Source: Clostridium sp. (GTDB lineage: Bacteria; Bacillota; Clostridia; Clostridiales; Clostridiaceae). Taken from it: a stretch of 33,575 nt of DNA. Of the stretch, positions 1 through 11,327 are shown piece after piece. The stretch's first letter is position 1. Every line of letters starts with the position of its first letter. The stretch is taken from NCBI RefSeq assembly GCF_030532265.1, contig NZ_JAUNLM010000022.1:1-33575 (forward strand), given 5' to 3'. Below the pieces are notes generated by a model that was not told where the DNA came from, made no database searches, and saw only the letters and a list, made by a program, of their open reading frames with translations. The position numbers and the translations under genes are program-made.

Positions 1-1904
1 TAACTAAAAAGGACTTAACTCAATGGTTCTTAAAAATTACTGATTACGCTGACGAGTTACTTGAAAAACTTGATGGACTTAACTGGCCAGAAAAAACTGT
101 AGCTATGCAAAAACACTGGATTGGTAAATCAACTGGTGCTGAAGTTACATTTAAAGTTAAAGATAGTGATTTATCATTTAACGTATTTACTACAAGAGTT
201 GATACATTAAATGGAGTTTCATATGTTGTTTTAGCTCCTGAAAATGAATTAGTTAACAAGTTAGTTACTGATGAAAACAAAGAAGCTGTTGAAAAATACA
301 AAGAAGAAGCTATAAAGCAATCAGATATAGAAAGACAATCAAGTACAAAAGAAAAGTCTGGAGTATTTACTGGTGCTTATGCTATAAATCCTATAAACGG
401 AAAAGAAGTTCCAATATGGGTAGCTGATTATGTACTTGCAAGCTATGGTACAGGTGCTGTTATGGCAGTTCCAGCTCATGATGAAAGAGATTTTGCTTTT
501 GCAACTAAGTTTAATCTTCCAATAAACAGAGTTATAGCTCCAAAGGATGGCTTAGAAGTAGAACTTCCATACTGCGAGCATGGAATATTAGTTAACTCAG
601 GTGAATTTGATGGATTAACTACAAAAGAAGCTAAAGTTAAAATAGTTGAAAAACTAGCTGAATCTAATGAAGGAAGTCAAAAAGTTAACTTTAGATTAAG
701 AGACTGGCTTGTATCAAGACAAAGATACTGGGGAGCTCCAATTCCAATGATTTATTGTGAAAAATGTGGAACAGTTCCAGTACCTGAAAAAGACCTTCCA
801 GTTCAATTACCATATGATGTTGAATTTGCACCAGATGGTAAATCACCACTTGCTAAGTGTGAGGAATTTGTAAATACAACTTGTCCTTGCTGTGGTGGAA
901 AAGCAAAAAGAGAAGTTGATACTTTAGATACATTTGTTTGTTCATCATGGTATTACTTAAGATACCCAGATAACAAAAATGAAAAAGAACCTTTCAATAA
1001 AGAACTTATAGATAAAATGCTTCCTGTTGATATGTATGTTGGAGGACCAGAGCATGCTTGTATGCACCTTCTATATGCAAGATTTATAACAAAAGCATTA
1101 AGAGATATGGGATACTTAAACTTTGATGAACCATTCACTTCATTAGTTCACCAAGGATTAATTTTAGGACCAGATGGACTTAAAATGAGTAAATCAAAAG
1201 GAAATACAATTTCACCAGATGATTATATTAAAGAATATGGTGCTGATGTATTTAGAATGTACTTAATGTTTGGTTTTGCTTATACTGAAGGTGGAGCTTG
1301 GAGTGATGACGGAATTAAATCTGTTGCAAGATTTGTAGATAGAATCGAAAGAAACTTAGAAACTGCACTAGAAGCTATAAATGGAGACCAAACTAAAGAT
1401 ACAGTTGATAAGGCTGAAAAAGAACTTAACTTCTGGTTAAACACTGCAATTAAAGGTGTTACTGAAGACGGAGAAAAAATGCAATTTAATACTGCAATTG
1501 CAAGAATGATGGAATTTATAAATGCCCTATCAAAATACAACAAAGAACAAGTTAAAAATACTAAGTTCTTAAAAGAAGTATGCGAAAGCTTTATAAAAAT
1601 TCTAGCACCATTTGCACCTCACTTTGCTGAAGAACAATGGAGCAAGTTCTCTAATACTACTTCAGTATTTAACGAAGCTTGGCCAAAATTTGACCCGAGT
1701 GCATTAGTTAAAGATGAAGTTGAAATAGCTGTTCAAATTAACGGAAAAGTAAGAGCTAAAGTTGTTATTCCAAATGGAGCAGATGATGAAACTATAAAAG
1801 CTGCTGTTTTAGCTGATGAAAATGTAATTAAAAATACAGAAGGTAAAAACATAATTAAAATTATAGTTATAAAAGGAAAATTAGTTAATATAGTTGTTAA
1901 GTAA
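1..1904 (+). CDS. leuS: Leucyl-tRNA synthetase, C-terminal part (5' end outside window)
   Basis: This cytoplasmic enzyme charges tRNA-Leu with leucine. The reading frame is already open at base 3, upstream of any ATG, and gives 633 residues; bacterial LeuRS has about 800-880, so roughly the first 170-200 residues (including the HIGH motif) lie outside. Visible parts in order: the CP1 editing domain with a threonine-rich TTRVDTLNG segment and VPAHDERDF; the catalytic re-entry segment [16 protein letters not shown]; a CxxC pair followed by a second CPCC zinc-type pair; the KMSKS loop encoded at 1182-1196; the helical anticodon domain; and the C-terminal domain containing QINGKVRAK. Downstream is a hairpin shared with convergent adhE. 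The editing motif reads TTRV where many LeuRS have TTRP, probably lineage variation. The identification is secure; regulation cannot be judged because the leader is not in the window. Confidence 0.97.
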
Positions 1905-6125: not shown

Positions 6126-6803
6126 TTAATTTATTATTTTTGTTTTAACTACTTCTTTTGTAAAATCATAGTCTGTATAATTTTCATTTATTTGATTTAT
6201 TTTATTTAGCATATCAATCCAACATTTATCTTTTACAGCTTTTTCTTCTTTTTCTTTACCATCTAATCCACTTAAATTTTTATCATTAAATTCATGATAA
6301 AACATTTTAGTTTTCTCAGATAAACTCTTCATTACTTGGAAATCTTGAAGTTCTTTTCCTGAAAGCTTTAATTCATTTTCCTCTGTATTCATTATATTAC
6401 TTAAACTATTTTCTAAATAATTTTCTATTCTTGAATATACTTCATTTTGTAATATAGAACTTGTATCTATTTTCTTCTTAGAAAACACTCCTGAATAATT
6501 AGAGCTATAATAATTATAATCATCCCAAAGTTCAATTAGACATTCAGATAAAGCTCCATAATTTTTATATAATAATAATACTTCTTCATTGCTAATCTTT
6601 TTTATTTCAGTAGCCTTGTTTAATATATTATATATTTTATCATTACTAACTTTTATACTTACTATGTTCTTGTATGAATTCATTCCTACTCTATGTTCAT
6701 ATCTACTATTATTTAAATACATAATTATATTGAATACAAAACTTACAAACACTATTAATACAAGTAACGTTAAATACTTATTGTGCTTTTTTAACTTATG
6801 CAT
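6126..6803 (-). CDS. Membrane-anchored protein of unknown function
   Basis: The 225-residue protein starts with a lysine-rich stretch (HKLKKHNK) and one hydrophobic segment, about residues 10-29, that would anchor it with the remainder outside the cell. There is no lipobox and no clear cleavage site. The remainder is polar, rich in lysine, glutamate and asparagine, and predicted helical, with no catalytic motif I recognise. The ATG start has AAGGGGTG at normal spacing. The gene lies 162 bases downstream of the VWA-like gene on the same strand; I found no good terminator in that gap, so it may be the last gene of the repeat-MoxR-VWA unit, though the gap also has room for a promoter. The gene is probably real given its ribosome site and length; its function is unknown. 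Confidence 0.7.
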   Translation of the reverse strand: MHKLKKHNKYLTLLVLIVFVSFVFNIIMYLNNSRYEHRVGMNSYKNIVSIKVSNDKIYNILNKATEIKKISNEEVLLLYKNYGALSECLIELWDDYNYYSSNYSGVFSKKKIDTSSILQNEVYSRIENYLENSLSNIMNTEENELKLSGKELQDFQVMKSLSEKTKMFYHEFNDKNLSGLDGKEKEEKAVKDKCWIDMLNKINQINENYTDYDFTKEVVKTKIIN

Positions 6804-6965: not shown

Positions 6966-8309
6966 TTACCTTGCCCAATCATGAATAACTCCTCTAATCA
7001 TTTGAAGGGCAGCATCTCCACTTTCTGATTTTTTTATTGTTTTATTGATATGCTTTATAGTTCCAAAAGGTTTTTTTAATGAAAGATTAGAGTCCCCTGT
7101 TATTACCCATATAACATTTTTTATATTTGGCTTTATAGTAAGTTCTGCCTCACCTTCACCATCAGTAAAATAAATTAAAACTCTATCTTGTAATCTATTA
7201 TCTTTTATATATTCAAAAACCTTTGAAAATTTAGTTGCTCCATTTTTTTTACTTCTCTCTTTAATATCTTTTGGAGTTTTTATATCATATACTCTTCTTA
7301 TTTCATCATCACATTCTATAACCTTTATTTTATCCACTCTACTTCTTGTTATAGAAAGTATTTCAATCATTATTTTATGTACTTCCTCATCACTCATACT
7401 TGCACTTATATCTATTGCAACAATAACTTCTGGAATAGAATCACGTAAAACACCTCTAAGGTCTACCCTATTTGGCTGTCTCCTATCTCTTCTAACTATA
7501 GTTTTCTTATATCCACTCTTTACTATTGGAAGTAATCTTTTTAAAGTATTTTGCCAATCAATTTCTTCTTTTTCTTTATATCCTTTAATAATATCTAATA
7601 TACTTTTTGGAGTATCACCTTTAGCTGAACTTATGGCAGTCTTTTTTGTAAGTTCTTTTACTCTTTCATTATCCATCTCAATATTTTCCCAAATATCATG
7701 AGCTGTTTCACTATCATATTCTCTTTTTACTTTATCGCTATCTTTTTTAGATTTATTTTTATCTATTCTTTTCTTAATAGCCTTATCTATTTCTTTTGCA
7801 TAATATTCTAATGGTTTATCTTCTTTAAGTTCAATATTATATTCCATAGCTACTGCTTGAAGTCTTTTGCATTCCATAGGAAGATGCTTTATAAATTGAT
7901 TTATTGATATATCCATAGCAACACTTACAGCTTCTTTGCTATAAGTATTTTTAAGCTCTTTTTCTCTCTCATAATGATTAAACATTATATGATATATTTC
8001 ATGTTTAAAAAGGGCTCCCATTTCTCTTTTTGTATTATTTAAAAATAATATTGGATTAAAAAACATTTTAAATCCATTTAATGTAGGAGTTGTAGCAAGT
8101 GGCCAAGATATATCAAGCTTTATATCTCTATCAATTTTAAGCATAAAATTACCAAAAAAGCTGTCTTCCTCTTCAATTTCATTTATTATTATTTTTTCTA
8201 TTAAACTGAAAAATTCTCTTTTAAACTTACTTGAAACATCATTTATATTTTGAAATTCAAGAGCTTCTTTTAAAAGTAAATTTCTCTTATCCTCAAAACT
8301 TGTAGCCAT
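6966..8309 (-). CDS. VWA-like protein with N-terminal HExxH metallopeptidase-like domain (DUF2201 type)
   Basis: The 447-residue protein has two recognisable halves. The N-terminal part holds HEIYHIMFNH (H103, E104, H107, H112), a zinc-peptidase-like signature, followed by an AMDISINQFI segment typical of the same domain. A lysine-rich charged linker spans about 175-230. The C-terminal half is a von Willebrand A-like domain with the metal-adhesion motif DISAS (D300, S302, S304), a candidate threonine at 359 and FTDGEGE (383 onward). This architecture matches the DUF2201 metallopeptidase/VWA family. Such proteins are partners of MoxR-type ATPases, and the gene sits 41 bases downstream of one. 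The ATG has GGAGGAAGG upstream. There is no signal peptide, so it is cytoplasmic. Whether the peptidase-like domain cuts protein is unproven; substrate unknown. Confidence 0.85.
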   Translation of the reverse strand: MATSFEDKRNLLLKEALEFQNINDVSSKFKREFFSLIEKIIINEIEEEDSFFGNFMLKIDRDIKLDISWPLATTPTLNGFKMFFNPILFLNNTKREMGALFKHEIYHIMFNHYEREKELKNTYSKEAVSVAMDISINQFIKHLPMECKRLQAVAMEYNIELKEDKPLEYYAKEIDKAIKKRIDKNKSKKDSDKVKREYDSETAHDIWENIEMDNERVKELTKKTAISSAKGDTPKSILDIIKGYKEKEEIDWQNTLKRLLPIVKSGYKKTIVRRDRRQPNRVDLRGVLRDSIPEVIVAIDISASMSDEEVHKIMIEILSITRSRVDKIKVIECDDEIRRVYDIKTPKDIKERSKKNGATKFSKVFEYIKDNRLQDRVLIYFTDGEGEAELTIKPNIKNVIWVITGDSNLSLKKPFGTIKHINKTIKKSESGDAALQMIRGVIHDWAR

Positions 8310-8350
8310 ATCCTTCCTCCTACTAATATACTTTTTAACGTAACATAACC

Positions 8351-9433
8351 TTAAGCATAAATATCAAAAAATGCTTCTAAAAACTCATCTGTATCAAGAA
8401 GAGCTTCATAAACTCTTTTACTTCCTTCATGCTTTATTTCTTTCATTATTCCAAGTCTTAAATCTCTTGGGTAACATCTTAAAACTTCTCCAAATATAGA
8501 AACTTCACTATTAAACTCATCTAATCCTTCTAAATATAACAAACTACTTTTAGCTAATATATATAGTCTTGAACTATTTTCACTAAATATTCTTTCTTTA
8601 ATATTTTCAGGTAAAATATCAAACTTAAATATTTCTTCTGGTTTAAGCATAGGTTTTTTCTTATTTTTTATAAAACTTGCAAAATCAGTTGATATATTAA
8701 CTCCTAAATTACCTTTAACTGTACTTAAAAATACATCAAAAGAATATCTTTCCTTATTATTTTTATAAACTTTATAAGCTTTAGAAACTCTCTCATAACT
8801 TCTTGGAGTAGCTTTAATACTTTCATTTGAGTTTGGAGTATTTAAATATTCCGGGAATGTACTTATAAATTCAATAATATCCTCATCAATATTTCCATCT
8901 TTGCTCATAGCCCATTTAATCCACTCTTTAACATCAACTTCCATATCAAGCCATACAAATCTATCTTCTTGAGCTGGGTCCATATCAACAACTGCATATT
9001 CACTATCTCTGTAATTATCATATTTATTTGATGGATTCATAGCTGCAATTATTTTAACTTCTTCTGGAAGGTTATATCCATTTATTTCTCTATTTAATAT
9101 TAAGTTCATAAGCTCTTGTTGAACAGCATGCTCACATCTGTTAAGTTCATCAATAAATAACAATACATTTCTTCCATTTTCTATAATCTCTGAAACTTTA
9201 GAAAGCTTATCATAAGTTGCATACACTGTTCTGCCTCGTACAACAGTTGGAAGTCCACCTATTTCCCCTTCCTTTAAAAGATTTGCATCTATTGTAATTA
9301 AAACATAATTATTTCTTTTTGCTATTTCTCTTGCAAGTGCAGTCTTTCCTATTCCACTTTCTCCAATAATAAGTGGAACATCATTTGAAGACATAACTAA
9401 CTCTGCTGCACTTAAAGTATCTGAATATCTCAT
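8351..9433 (-). CDS. MoxR-family AAA+ ATPase
   Basis: The 360-residue protein is a AAA+ ATPase of the MoxR/RavA kind, which act as chaperones that remodel or mature partner proteins, usually together with a VWA protein. Motifs: Walker A GESGIGKT (24-31), Walker B LLFIDELNR with D95 and E96, sensor-1 region AAMNPS (N133), and DPAQEDRF with R159 as a possible arginine finger. The C-terminal 150 residues form the lid and a less conserved helical part. The ribosome site GGGAGG overlaps the TAG stop of the upstream repeat gene (13-base gap), suggesting translational coupling. The next gene, 41 bases on, encodes the VWA partner. The family assignment is strong; what this ATPase acts on is unknown. 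Confidence 0.92.
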   Translation of the reverse strand: MRYSDTLSAAELVMSSNDVPLIIGESGIGKTALAREIAKRNNYVLITIDANLLKEGEIGGLPTVVRGRTVYATYDKLSKVSEIIENGRNVLLFIDELNRCEHAVQQELMNLILNREINGYNLPEEVKIIAAMNPSNKYDNYRDSEYAVVDMDPAQEDRFVWLDMEVDVKEWIKWAMSKDGNIDEDIIEFISTFPEYLNTPNSNESIKATPRSYERVSKAYKVYKNNKERYSFDVFLSTVKGNLGVNISTDFASFIKNKKKPMLKPEEIFKFDILPENIKERIFSENSSRLYILAKSSLLYLEGLDEFNSEVSIFGEVLRCYPRDLRLGIMKEIKHEGSKRVYEALLDTDEFLEAFFDIYA

Positions 9434-9446
9434 TTTGTCTACCTCC

Positions 9447-10235
9447 CTAAAGCTTACAATCCACTAAAAGTTTTTTAGTTTCTTTATCTCCGTATTCTCT
9501 TATGAAAGAAACCTTATCCATTTCTAATATTTCTAAATCCAAGAAGTTTTTCATATACTCCCTTGTCATTTCACCTTTATCTAATTTTTCAATTAATACA
9601 TCAACAACAAGTTCTGGATCTATACTTTCATAAAGATACTTAACAACATTTATATTATCCTCTATAAAAAGCTTCATTTCATCGTAAGAATATCCAGCTA
9701 TATAATTAATAGCTTCCTCATCTTTAATTACAGAAAGTCTTTTTACTTTAAGAGTTGGCTTTTCTATAAATCTTATTGCTCCCCAATAGTTTAATACTGC
9801 TGCCTCTTGAACTTCTTCTGAAGGATTTTTAATATATTTTATTGCATCATAATCCTTGTTTACAGCTAATAGCTTAAGTTCTTCTGAAGGATTCTCTACA
9901 TATTGAATTGCCCATCCTTTTGACTTAACTGCTTCTTCAATAATTTTTTCATTTGGATTTTTTATATACTTTAATGAATTCCATAAAGCTCTTACAGATG
10001 AAATAGCAACTTCCTCATCTAAATTATCAATATGCTCTATTGATAAAGGGTCACTTTTAACAGCAAGTCTTTGAAGTTCAACACTTGGGTTTTTCATAAA
10101 TTTAATCATCATTCCATTACCTTTAAGAGCTGCCTTTTTCATATCCTCTGTTGGATTTTCAATTTCAGCTATTCTTGTAGGATTTTGTTCTATCATTTTT
10201 ATTATTTCTTTTTCATTTAAATTAACGTCCTTCAC
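9447..10235 (-). CDS. Protein of 22-residue tandem helical repeats, first gene of the MoxR-VWA cluster
   Basis: The 262-residue protein is built almost wholly from a 22-residue unit repeated nine times, about residues 22-219. The pattern is roughly I-x-Y-I-x-N-P-S-E-E-x-x-x-x-A-V-x-x-x-x-x-A. The best units read IKYIKNPSEEVQEAAV and IQYVENPSEELKLLAV. Each unit would form a helix beginning at the NPSEE cap, then a short loop and strand or second short helix, so the whole is likely a solenoid binding surface. Resemblance to DUF4116-like or HEAT-like repeats is loose. There is no signal peptide or membrane segment. It starts at GTG with AGAGGTG upstream, and its stop codon overlaps the ribosome site of the MoxR gene. 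From position it may be the substrate adaptor or target of the MoxR-VWA pair; this is inference. Confidence 0.85.
   Translation of the reverse strand: MKDVNLNEKEIIKMIEQNPTRIAEIENPTEDMKKAALKGNGMMIKFMKNPSVELQRLAVKSDPLSIEHIDNLDEEVAISSVRALWNSLKYIKNPNEKIIEEAVKSKGWAIQYVENPSEELKLLAVNKDYDAIKYIKNPSEEVQEAAVLNYWGAIRFIEKPTLKVKRLSVIKDEEAINYIAGYSYDEMKLFIEDNINVVKYLYESIDPELVVDVLIEKLDKGEMTREYMKNFLDLEILEMDKVSFIREYGDKETKKLLVDCKL
9579..10172 (-). repeat. Nine 66-base coding repeats (22 residues each)
   Basis: Units begin at residues 22, 44, 66, 88, 110, 132, 154, 176 and 198 of the repeat protein, with no insertion between them. The first seven keep the I-N-P-E-A pattern well (units 3 and 7 lose part of NP). 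The eighth and ninth are degenerate. The DNA copies have diverged, so this is an old protein repeat, not a recent tandem duplication. Confidence 0.85.
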
Positions 10236-10476: not shown

Positions 10477-10511
10477 AAAAAAGCTAGATACTTAAACTTT
10501 AAGCATCTAGC
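10477..10511 (-). terminator. Terminator of relQ
   Basis: On the minus strand GCTAGATGCTTAAA and TTTAAGTATCTAGC form a 14-bp stem with one G-U pair, followed by TTTTTT. It lies 24 bases after the relQ stop. Confidence 0.85.
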
Positions 10512-10535: not shown

Positions 10536-11327
10536 TTAATCTTTATATTTATCTATTTCCCTTTTTATAAGACATAGAAGATCATTAAGTTCCCAAACAT
10601 CTCCATCTTCTATTAATTTATTTAACGATTTTTCGTATCTACTTGCCTCAGGTATTTTTCCTAAAGATATTAAAACTAATATGTTATTCATAATATCTGA
10701 TATTATTCCTGATTTAACCTCAAATAATTTTTGAGCATCTTTAATCTCATCTTTTATCTCAAGCATTTCTTCATCAAGCTTAAATGCAGCATCTGCAGCA
10801 CTCTTAAGCTTCCTTTTCAGTTCAACTGGAATTTGCTGCTTGTACTTATAGTTTAATGAATGTTCTATAGTTGCCCAAAAGTTCATAGCAAGGGTTCTTA
10901 TTTGAAATTCTGCCAAAATATCAACTGGTCCTTCTGCCATATTTACAGTATACTTAATTATCATATGGTAGCTTCTATATCCACTTGATTTTACCCCTCT
11001 TACATAGTCCTTCTCATAAAGAACCTGCATATCATTTCTTCCCCTTAAAAGCTCAACAACCCTGTCTATATCATCAACAAACTGACACATAACTCTTATA
11101 CCAGCTATGTCTTCCATTTCATATCTTATTCTATCAACAGGAATCCCAAATTTATTGGCTTTTTCTAATATACTTGCAACTTCCTTAACTCTACCAGTTA
11201 CAAATTCAATTGGAGAATATTCTTTCTTTTTTCTGTATTCTTTTCTTATACTTTTTAGTTTAACTTTTAGTTCGTCTACTGCCTGATCATAAGGCACTAA
11301 AAAACTCTTCCAATCATTTATAGCCAT
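10536..11327 (-). CDS. relQ: Small alarmone synthetase RelQ (GTP pyrophosphokinase)
   Basis: This enzyme transfers pyrophosphate from ATP to GDP or GTP, making the stringent-response alarmones (p)ppGpp. The 263-residue length and the lack of HD hydrolase, TGS and ACT domains mark a small synthetase rather than bifunctional Rel. Family hallmarks: SPIEFVTGRVK with R46, EDIAGIRVMCQFVDDI with D73 as the Mg ligand, the substrate loop KSSGYRSYH, and EFQIRTLAMNFWATIEHSLNYKY near 150, typical of the RelQ/YjbM (SAS1) branch, whose members form tetramers with allosteric regulation. RelP (YwaC) is the alternative but fits less well. The ATG has AGGTGGG at slightly long spacing. Promoter and terminator indicate a single-gene unit. 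The B. subtilis relationship with an adjacent nadF/ppnK gene is not seen here. Confidence 0.93.
   Translation of the reverse strand: MAINDWKSFLVPYDQAVDELKVKLKSIRKEYRKKKEYSPIEFVTGRVKEVASILEKANKFGIPVDRIRYEMEDIAGIRVMCQFVDDIDRVVELLRGRNDMQVLYEKDYVRGVKSSGYRSYHMIIKYTVNMAEGPVDILAEFQIRTLAMNFWATIEHSLNYKYKQQIPVELKRKLKSAADAAFKLDEEMLEIKDEIKDAQKLFEVKSGIISDIMNNILVLISLGKIPEASRYEKSLNKLIEDGDVWELNDLLCLIKREIDKYKD

Follow-up and report, generated by a model that had tools for sequence, protein, structure and literature searches.

We examined a window of 33,575 bases that comprises one whole contig (C87) of genome G000 (2.48 Mb in 131 contigs), whose named relatives are Clostridium. On its minus strand the window carries a tandem of three genes, here called the trio, which encode in order a repeat protein, a MoxR-type AAA+ ATPase and a DUF2201 metallo-VWA protein (Table 1). 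The three genes are a real genetic unit, as a sequence-only reading of this DNA had proposed: they co-occur, keep one order, leave empty sites, have apparently been transferred jointly and diverge in a correlated manner. The same reading called the trio its best candidate for an undescribed system. The combination was indeed not found described, since neither MoxR together with DUF2201 nor MoxR with VWA and a solenoid was found in the open-access literature searched, but its parts are known, a MoxR-VWA pair and a predicted DUF4116 solenoid fold having been published earlier. The trio is therefore a real, discrete combination made from known parts. In our best explanation, the three genes are one cassette that encodes a single remodelling machine of the NorQD kind, in which the solenoid serves as the dedicated adaptor; we regard the chances of this as evenly balanced.

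Linkage and inheritance of the three genes

A search of 118 genomes found all three proteins (the ATPase at E ≤1e-20) in the same 62, G000 included, all of one genus among 42. Sixty-two of the 68 members of this genus thus hold the trio; the VWA search added three weak matches (G023, G072 and G115). The genes lay together in the order repeat, ATPase, VWA by coordinates in all 62 genomes, the exception being G056, in which the VWA match was split over two contigs. The VWA frame was broken in G002, and G042 had stops in the repeat frame and a split VWA frame. A scan of named genomes, from which 80 of 94 loci were kept and the 14 others were not included, found the trio in one order at all 80, a constancy beyond chance. 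For 79 of these the order was determined by script, on one strand. The eightieth (L257) was read from its list of open reading frames, which showed a 237-residue frame at the match site followed by the ATPase and VWA genes, with an antisense frame called as the gene there. The VWA frame was split in L234, L244 and L267, and a few loci reach the end of their contig within the VWA gene. At all 80 loci the VWA gene was directly beside the ATPase gene; a MoxR protein with a VWA partner was the right theme for this locus. Each full-length repeat gene found, with coordinates printed or read, adjoined a MoxR-VWA pair, and no searched genome carried two full-length copies of the repeat protein. Median gaps within the trio were 13 and 11 bases at the 79 measured loci. 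The window has gaps of 13 bases (repeat and ATPase genes) and 41 bases (ATPase and VWA genes), each with a GGAGG-type ribosome site visible by eye, which bears out the earlier description of three tightly packed genes.

We divided the trios into type A (52 of the 62 genomes), with repeat proteins 49–100% identical to that of the window, and type B (10 genomes; 40–44%). Pairwise divergences of the three trio proteins correlated with one another at 0.90–0.95 (23 genomes, 253 pairs), as compared with 0.37–0.42 for trio proteins against rpoB (190 pairs). The contrast was smaller among type-A genomes (0.89–0.93 versus 0.75–0.78 with rpoB). Over matched pairs, the trio was 2.3 to 3.2 times more diverged than the neighbouring YjbM-type GTP diphosphokinase, which is encoded upstream of the trio.

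The downstream neighbour in the window is c3, a gene for a fast-changing protein. It was within ~1 kb of the VWA gene in 43 of the 52 type-A genomes; in the others it was farther away or on another contig in two (G036 and G057) and was not found in seven. In the nine type-B genomes that have c3, c3 and the trio were on different contigs. For site comparison we fetched 18 regions, six from trio-less genomes, nine from type-B genomes and three from type-A controls. YjbM was directly beside c3, with the site empty of the trio, in 12 genomes (five of the six trio-less and seven of the nine type B). The region from the remaining trio-less genome, G013, lacked YjbM and c3 and gave a weak YjbM-like match only, and the two other type-B contigs ended too early for the site to be read. 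Among the type-A controls, G043 had the trio beside YjbM and no c3, G036 had the trio ~7.5 kb from c3, and G057 had a c3 contig without the trio.

Type B, which includes one genome of another family (G383), formed one group in the repeat-gene tree (support 100/99), as did its seven rows in the tree of the VWA protein and in that of the ATPase (both 100/100). An rpoB tree was built from 24 of the 29 genomes searched, four having no match and G012 a fragment only. On this tree the five type-B rows required three changes and never formed one group in 200 bootstrap trees, and four changes were likewise needed for the four trio-less genomes. Most simply, these patterns would mean that the cassette has been horizontally transferred and lost whole. 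Both flanking genes were considered as further parts and rejected: they lie side by side in five trio-less genomes, c3 (found in 59 of the 118 relatives and confined to one genus) is missing from nine of the 68 genus members, eight of which have the trio, and a terminator-like hairpin separates YjbM from the trio.

The sequence-only reading had further raised the possibility that the repeat gene always sits next to MoxR-DUF2201 pairs across Clostridia, which proved not to be so. Among 391 Clostridia genomes, DUF2201 was found in 61 and a full or nearly full-length repeat profile in 11, all of them DUF2201-positive; seven more genomes, including the DUF2201-positive G121, had partial repeat-profile matches only. 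Outside the genus we read 40 of 57 listed DUF2201 places (L148–L187). A MoxR-profile ATPase adjoined the VWA gene or was one gene away at 39 of these, the contig of the other (L153) starting just before a VWA fragment, and the repeat gene was present at four. The repeat protein was thus rejected as a general MoxR-DUF2201 partner. Absence of the repeat gene from most genomes with the pair, which the earlier note had taken as refuting, is what was found in the wide DUF2201 family, but not within the branch to which this locus belongs. In trees from which rows of 300 residues or fewer were left out, the 23 repeat-linked rows formed one group (VWA, 96/98 with 60 rows; ATPase, 96/95 with 59 rows), and the repeat gene therefore probably joined the MoxR-VWA pair once. 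A 221-residue gene upstream of the L155 ATPase gene was tried as a hidden solenoid homologue and rejected, as it gave no repeat-profile match even with filters off. At four loci we observed a different three-gene combination, in which an SNF2/ResIII-type helicase gene (1144–1263 residues) lies just upstream of, and overlaps, the ATPase gene.

The three gene products and their phage relatives

The repeat protein matched Pfam PF13475 (DUF4116) at 32.1 bits (cut-off 24.9). Its AlphaFold model, built from a 19-row alignment, had a mean predicted local distance difference test score (pLDDT) of 94.5, with helices starting at residues 8, 30, 52, 74, 96, 118, 140, 162 and 184. This spacing of exactly 22 agrees with the period first read from the sequence, and additional helices follow residue 184 up to residue 261. 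We confidently predict an alpha-solenoid of 22-residue period with a conserved C-terminal cap. In an alignment of the window with 79 named loci (80 rows in all), N194, Y200, K241, G249, D259 and L262 were identical in every row with a letter there, and Y227 was conserved at 99%. The length was almost constant, at 256–278 residues in 75 of the 80 rows (median 259, minimum 169), unlike that of a diversifying sensor. The sixth repeat (residues 118–139) was the most conserved, with a mean entropy of 1.02, and the alignment indicates that the repeats are not interchangeable. W85, G107, D128 and D130 were identical in all rows with a letter and lie either in the turn that precedes the short second helix or where that helix begins; some of the invariant residues may be helix caps instead of a binding face. 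The nearest named relatives of the protein were from Clostridium sp. Ade.TY (95%) and next C. sardiniense (80%).

Assignment to a repeat class of solved structure was tried and rejected, as a Foldseek search of the PDB gave no match at E ≤0.001 (best, importin alpha, E 0.044, template modelling score 0.15); a sequence search of the PDB gave no match at E ≤1. When predicted viral proteins were searched by fold, DUF4116 proteins from phages and giant viruses made up most of the top matches, and many of the rest were unnamed. With tblastn, DUF4116 runs were found in nine plasmid and six phage records, none of which aligned beyond residue 238. The repeat is therefore common, and it is the repeats plus the C-terminal part that mark the clostridial family. 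DUF4116 was earlier predicted to be an alpha-solenoid in a 2021 paper (PMC8078820), and a second paper mentions a DUF4116 protein of C. difficile in a different context. On the Bacteroides fragilis plasmid NZ_CP036547.1 (L268:4123-7407), a DUF4116 gene lies directly 3′ of a gene annotated as a zincin-like metallopeptidase, with a helicase-related gene farther along; this adjacency may be coincidence. The viral contig L337 (127-4186) carries several short DUF4116-like genes.

The ATPase exceeded the Pfam cut-offs for AAA_5 and AAA and was below that for AAA_3 (PF07726; 22.1 bits versus 27). AAA_3 is the classical MoxR model, and on these matches we class the protein only as MoxR-like. Its Walker A motif is GESGIGKT and its Walker B motif LLFIDE. 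In 81 rows, G24, E25, G27, G29, K30 and T31 and residues L92 to E96 were conserved at a level of at least 97.5%. Residues 48–62 were also strongly conserved, and type B carries an insertion farther on. MoxR-type ATPases are marked by an insert in helix 2 of the AAA+ core (PMC7159879).

The third protein matched both DUF2201_N (33.2 bits, cut-off 23.2) and DUF2201 (58.5 bits, cut-off 26.4). Its HEIYHIMFNH sequence was found with H103 and E104 where the sequence-only reading had placed them. That reading considered the protease-like site to be less explained; however, the domain is already Pfam DUF2201_N and a phage MoxR/metallopeptidase-vWA pair has been described (PMC7824862). H103, E104, H107, H112 and D133 were identical in 80 of 81 rows of the named set, the remaining row being gapped there. 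Residues of the metal ion-dependent adhesion site (MIDAS) were conserved in 76–77 of the 77 rows with letters. The linker was unusually conserved, its mean commonest-residue frequency being 0.77, whereas the N domain reached 0.58 and the VWA domain 0.65. The model showed three strands, the metal motif ending a well-predicted helix, a poorly predicted linker (264–284) and then the VWA domain; Foldseek found solved VWA domains, one at E <0.001 (5a8j, 4.1e-4). The protein closes with a short C-terminal tail (window 6969–6986), which comes after a low-confidence stretch of the model; of 81 trio rows, 29 have the ending HDWAR and six the ending NQEPIF. The C-terminus of NorD touches the ring (PMC13036017). 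In a wider DUF2201 set, 43 of 45 rows were readable, and HExxH with the third histidine was present in 23. The metal site probably binds metal across the DUF2201 family. In the trio proteins it may be catalytic and could cleave a target.

The best matches in a phage collection (40 best of 210 and 497 records) were the pairs of PBS1, AR9, Goe21 and BpSp. Among the matches listed, the phage ATPases matched at 34–35% over 98–99% (E to 2e-54), and the VWA protein matched that of PBS1 at 30% over 91% (E 1e-48), with 51% covered in AR9. The best PHROGs were phrog_1297 (E 2.6e-54) and phrog_1314 (E 1.6e-52). The label 'HNH endonuclease' on phrog_1314 and on gene 214 of NC_043027.1 (L332:7226-8641) does not fit, because Pfam gives DUF2201_N, DUF2201 and VWA matches and no HNH at E ≤0.001. 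When the pairs of PBS1, AR9, BpSp and PALS_2 were added to the trees, the trio, the phages (of the PBS1/AR9 type and staphylococcal) and L153/L155 formed one group (VWA, 100/99; ATPase, 100/98, without an L153 ATPase), and the repeat-linked group, represented by 14 of its 23 rows, was retained at 95/97 (VWA) and 94/91 (ATPase). In the ATPase tree the sister of the trio was the PBS1 type, at modest support (94/79), and long branches, PALS_2 and L155 among them, drew a warning from the tree program. L153 and L155, close relatives of the pair in the trio, come from incomplete genomes, where their contigs are 4.7 and 6.3 kb long, and may be phage contigs; L155 adjoins an HNH gene and a helicase-like frame. 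The linker motif T..R..RRQ..R.D..G was present in 24 of 60 VWA rows, namely 22 of the 23 repeat-linked rows plus L153 and L155, and in none of the other 35. Of five viral proteins read, four carried it and that of L338 had Cys in place of Gln. In its strict form it was present in 70 of 81 named-set rows, four of the 11 misses being short fragments.

The MoxR and metallopeptidase-vWA pair of jumbo phages was described in 2021, when a role in virion assembly with processing was proposed (PMC7824862). The AR9 record (KU878088.1:21869-21881; L333:5932-5944) annotates an early promoter directly before its MoxR-zincin-VWA pair, which suggests an early role of the pair in AR9 and is at odds with a purely late role in virion assembly. 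A paper on staphylococcal jumbo phages discusses a MoxR-like ATPase as possibly co-packaged (PMC10638138), and the passages seen of two further phage papers (PMC4870245 and PMC5312081) contain nothing on the pair by gene number. Viral contigs were scanned with the repeat alignment and with the ATPase alignment, and each scan yielded a single locus; the patterns came from clostridial sequences, and more distant viral trios could escape them. A trio on these contigs was sought by eye in lists of open reading frames and rejected, as L337 carries a DUF4116-like run and neither MoxR nor VWA, and L338 has a MoxR-VWA pair and lacks the repeat gene. In the VWA protein of L338 (2156-3784) the first histidine of the metal motif is replaced (LELLHIMNLH), perhaps giving an inactive site.

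A possible remodelling machine and its alternatives

In the NorQD model, a finger of the VWA domain enters the ring pore, the MIDAS grips an acidic residue of the target, and ATP-driven force is exerted on the linker (PMC9976466 and PMC13036017). By analogy, the MoxR-type protein of the trio would form an AAA+ ring, and the DUF2201 protein, with its NorD-like build of N-terminal domain, flexible linker and VWA domain, would be the co-chaperone of that ring. The DUF4116 solenoid would be a dedicated third subunit, most likely an adaptor that presents the target. The VWA domain would dock on the ring, its MIDAS would grip an acidic residue, either on the target or on the solenoid, and the conserved Arg-rich linker would be worked by ATP-driven motion, which would bring the N-terminal metal domain onto the target. 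Because the HExxHxxxxH motif is complete in the trio branch, we lean slightly, by inference, towards limited target cleavage over pure remodelling. A stronger version, that the trio is a MoxR-driven protease of its own kind, with an AAA+ ring, a peptidase within the chain of the VWA co-chaperone and targets brought by the 22-residue-repeat solenoid, and either derives from jumbo phages or is held in common with them, the phages employing the two-protein core at an early stage of infection, is tentative and, in our view, doubtful.

Several observations weigh against a three-part, catalytic machine that moves as a cassette. DUF2201 occurred without a full-length repeat protein in 50 of the 61 positive class genomes, and none of the opened phage records with the pair was among the six matching the repeat protein by tblastn. 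Within type A, the MoxR/YjbM correlation (0.88, 66 pairs) was close to that of MoxR and the repeat protein (0.89, 91 pairs), and the pattern of types A and B could stem from an old duplication with repeated loss instead of transfer. Confidence in the predicted structure of the VWA protein is middling (mean pLDDT 77.9, predicted template modelling score 0.57). In addition, 19 of the 43 readable DUF2201 rows kept three histidines without the glutamate, and one further row lacked the glutamate and had Asp in place of the third histidine. Eighteen of these 20 rows made up exactly one branch of the VWA tree, in which the histidines were kept and the glutamate was not, and the metal site therefore need not be catalytic.

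These glutamate-less rows would suit a pure remodelling or metal-insertion chaperone, in which the solenoid is a client or part that MoxR and the VWA protein mature and the metal site is structural or a carrier. NorQD itself inserts iron into its target (PMC9976466), and the solenoid gene comes first in the trio and is conserved about as well as the ATPase (mean column identity 61% versus 60%). However, the glutamate did not vary across the named trio rows and occurred in all four jumbo-phage proteins read, and no constant metal enzyme was found beside the trio among the only 10 annotated neighbours, which came from seven other loci (L082–L086, L148 and L149); one of these, at L149, is a pyruvate:ferredoxin oxidoreductase. 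We consider this explanation unlikely. A conflict or anti-phage system, kin to the vWA-MoxR-VMAP ternary systems and perhaps derived from jumbo phages and turned to defence, would account for the apparent mobility of the cassette, its scattered absence on the rpoB tree, its rapid divergence relative to YjbM and its jumbo-phage kin. This we judge quite unlikely, given that most of the genus holds the trio, that most type-A copies lie close to c3 and that the length of the solenoid is nearly fixed. PADLOC gave no match for the repeat and VWA proteins and weak AAA matches only for the ATPase, and searches with Pfam, NCBIfam and PADLOC, none of which used a VMAP model by name, detected no effector domain in the trio. 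Among the 10 annotated neighbours at other trios, PADLOC protease models matched one, a trypsin-like protein (E 1.1e-10). Finally, the MoxR-VWA pair and an unrelated solenoid gene might be held together by linkage, with no common machine. The repeat gene was missing at 36 of the 40 DUF2201 loci outside the genus and from the phage records opened; nonetheless the full-length repeat genes all adjoin the pair and trio-less genomes miss all three genes at once, which makes this explanation very improbable.

NorQ-NorD shares with the trio the MoxR-type ring partner and the build of N domain, flexible linker and VWA domain with MIDAS (PMC9976466 and PMC13036017). Its target is nitric oxide reductase. 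The trio has a zincin-like domain in the place of the NorD N domain. NorD is not known to have a zincin domain, NorQ-NorD is not known to have a solenoid, and neither a DUF2201_N domain nor a solenoid is known in RavA-ViaA or CoxD-CoxE. The yeast Cdc48-Wss1-Doa1 system, with an AAA+ motor, a zincin-type protease and a helical-repeat cofactor, is a loose analogy only. RavA-ViaA and CoxD-CoxE share the MoxR-VWA theme (PMC7159879). The vWA-MoxR-VMAP ternary systems likewise combine MoxR, vWA and a third protein, which in their case is VMAP or another protein with effector domains (PMC7159879), whereas in the trio it is the DUF4116 solenoid. The jumbo-phage pair (PBS1, AR9, BpSp and PALS_2; PMC7824862) has the same two proteins, order, HExxHxxxxH and DxSxS motifs and Arg-rich linker and differs in that the phage records lack a repeat-protein match.

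For many MoxR-VWA pairs the target is not established. In the trio, genome evidence defines a constant third subunit, the solenoid, added to the pair; the question of the target is therefore directly testable, with a small solenoid bait that is easy to tag and pull down. The tie between a chromosomal MoxR-VWA pair and jumbo phages of the PBS1/AR9 type also opens up another, independent system built on this core, where the pair could be deleted and followed during infection of laboratory Bacillus subtilis.

Features of the window and minor observations

Table 1. Positions of the trio, its motifs and neighbouring features (window coordinates unless a locus is named)
Feature	Position	Strand	Description and basis
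Repeat gene, first of trio	9447-10235	-	262 residues, GTG start, predicted DUF4116 alpha-solenoid; Pfam PF13475 E 8.1e-8
MoxR-type AAA+ ATPase gene	8351-9433	-	360 residues; Pfam AAA_5 E 3.1e-9; PHROG phrog_1297 'ATPase' E 2.6e-54
DUF2201 protein gene	6966-8309	-	447 residues, zincin-like N domain, linker and VWA; DUF2201_N E 5.5e-8, DUF2201 E 9.2e-16
Eight 22-residue two-helix repeats	9687-10214	-	Residues 8-183; helix spacing in model, phase conservation
Ninth helix pair and C-terminal cap	9450-9686	-	Residues 184-262; residue conservation, 80 rows
Walker A, GESGIGKT	9341-9364	-	Residues 24-31; sequence, alignment
Walker B, LLFIDE	9146-9163	-	Residues 91-96; sequence, alignment
HExxHxxxxH metal-site motif, HEIYHIMFNH	7974-8003	-	Residues 103-112; 81-row alignment
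MIDAS, DISAS	7398-7412	-	Residues 300-304, completed by T359 (7233-7235) and D383 (7161-7163); motif name from PMC9976466
Arg-rich linker, KKTxxRRxRRQPxRxDxxG	7452-7508	-	Residues 268-286; conserved, mostly low-confidence in model
YjbM-type GTP diphosphokinase gene	10536-11327	-	Upstream flank, not part of trio; NF053588, 321.2 bits at cut-off 320
c3 gene	6126-6803	-	Downstream flank, not part of trio; fast-changing 225-residue protein; adjoins YjbM in trio-less genomes
Terminator-like hairpin	10483-10511	-	Between upstream gene and trio; pattern scan, folding versus shuffles
Helicase gene with MoxR-DUF2201 pair (4 loci)	L156:8705-12274, L160:8919-12353, L161:379-4170, L174:8208-11801		Different three-gene combination

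The terminator pattern scan gave one site in the region as compared with 0.7 (standard deviation 1.0) in shuffles, so the count is uninformative by itself. The hairpin stretch (10511–10483) folded better than 200 of 200 shuffles (z −4.19). Promoter-like matches in the region were no commoner than expected by chance (31 versus 28.4), and NCBIfam gave no match above cut-off for any trio product among the rows shown (25 of 35 for the ATPase). At the edge of the contig, the leucyl-tRNA synthetase frame (window 105–1904) has a model match that starts only at position 216.

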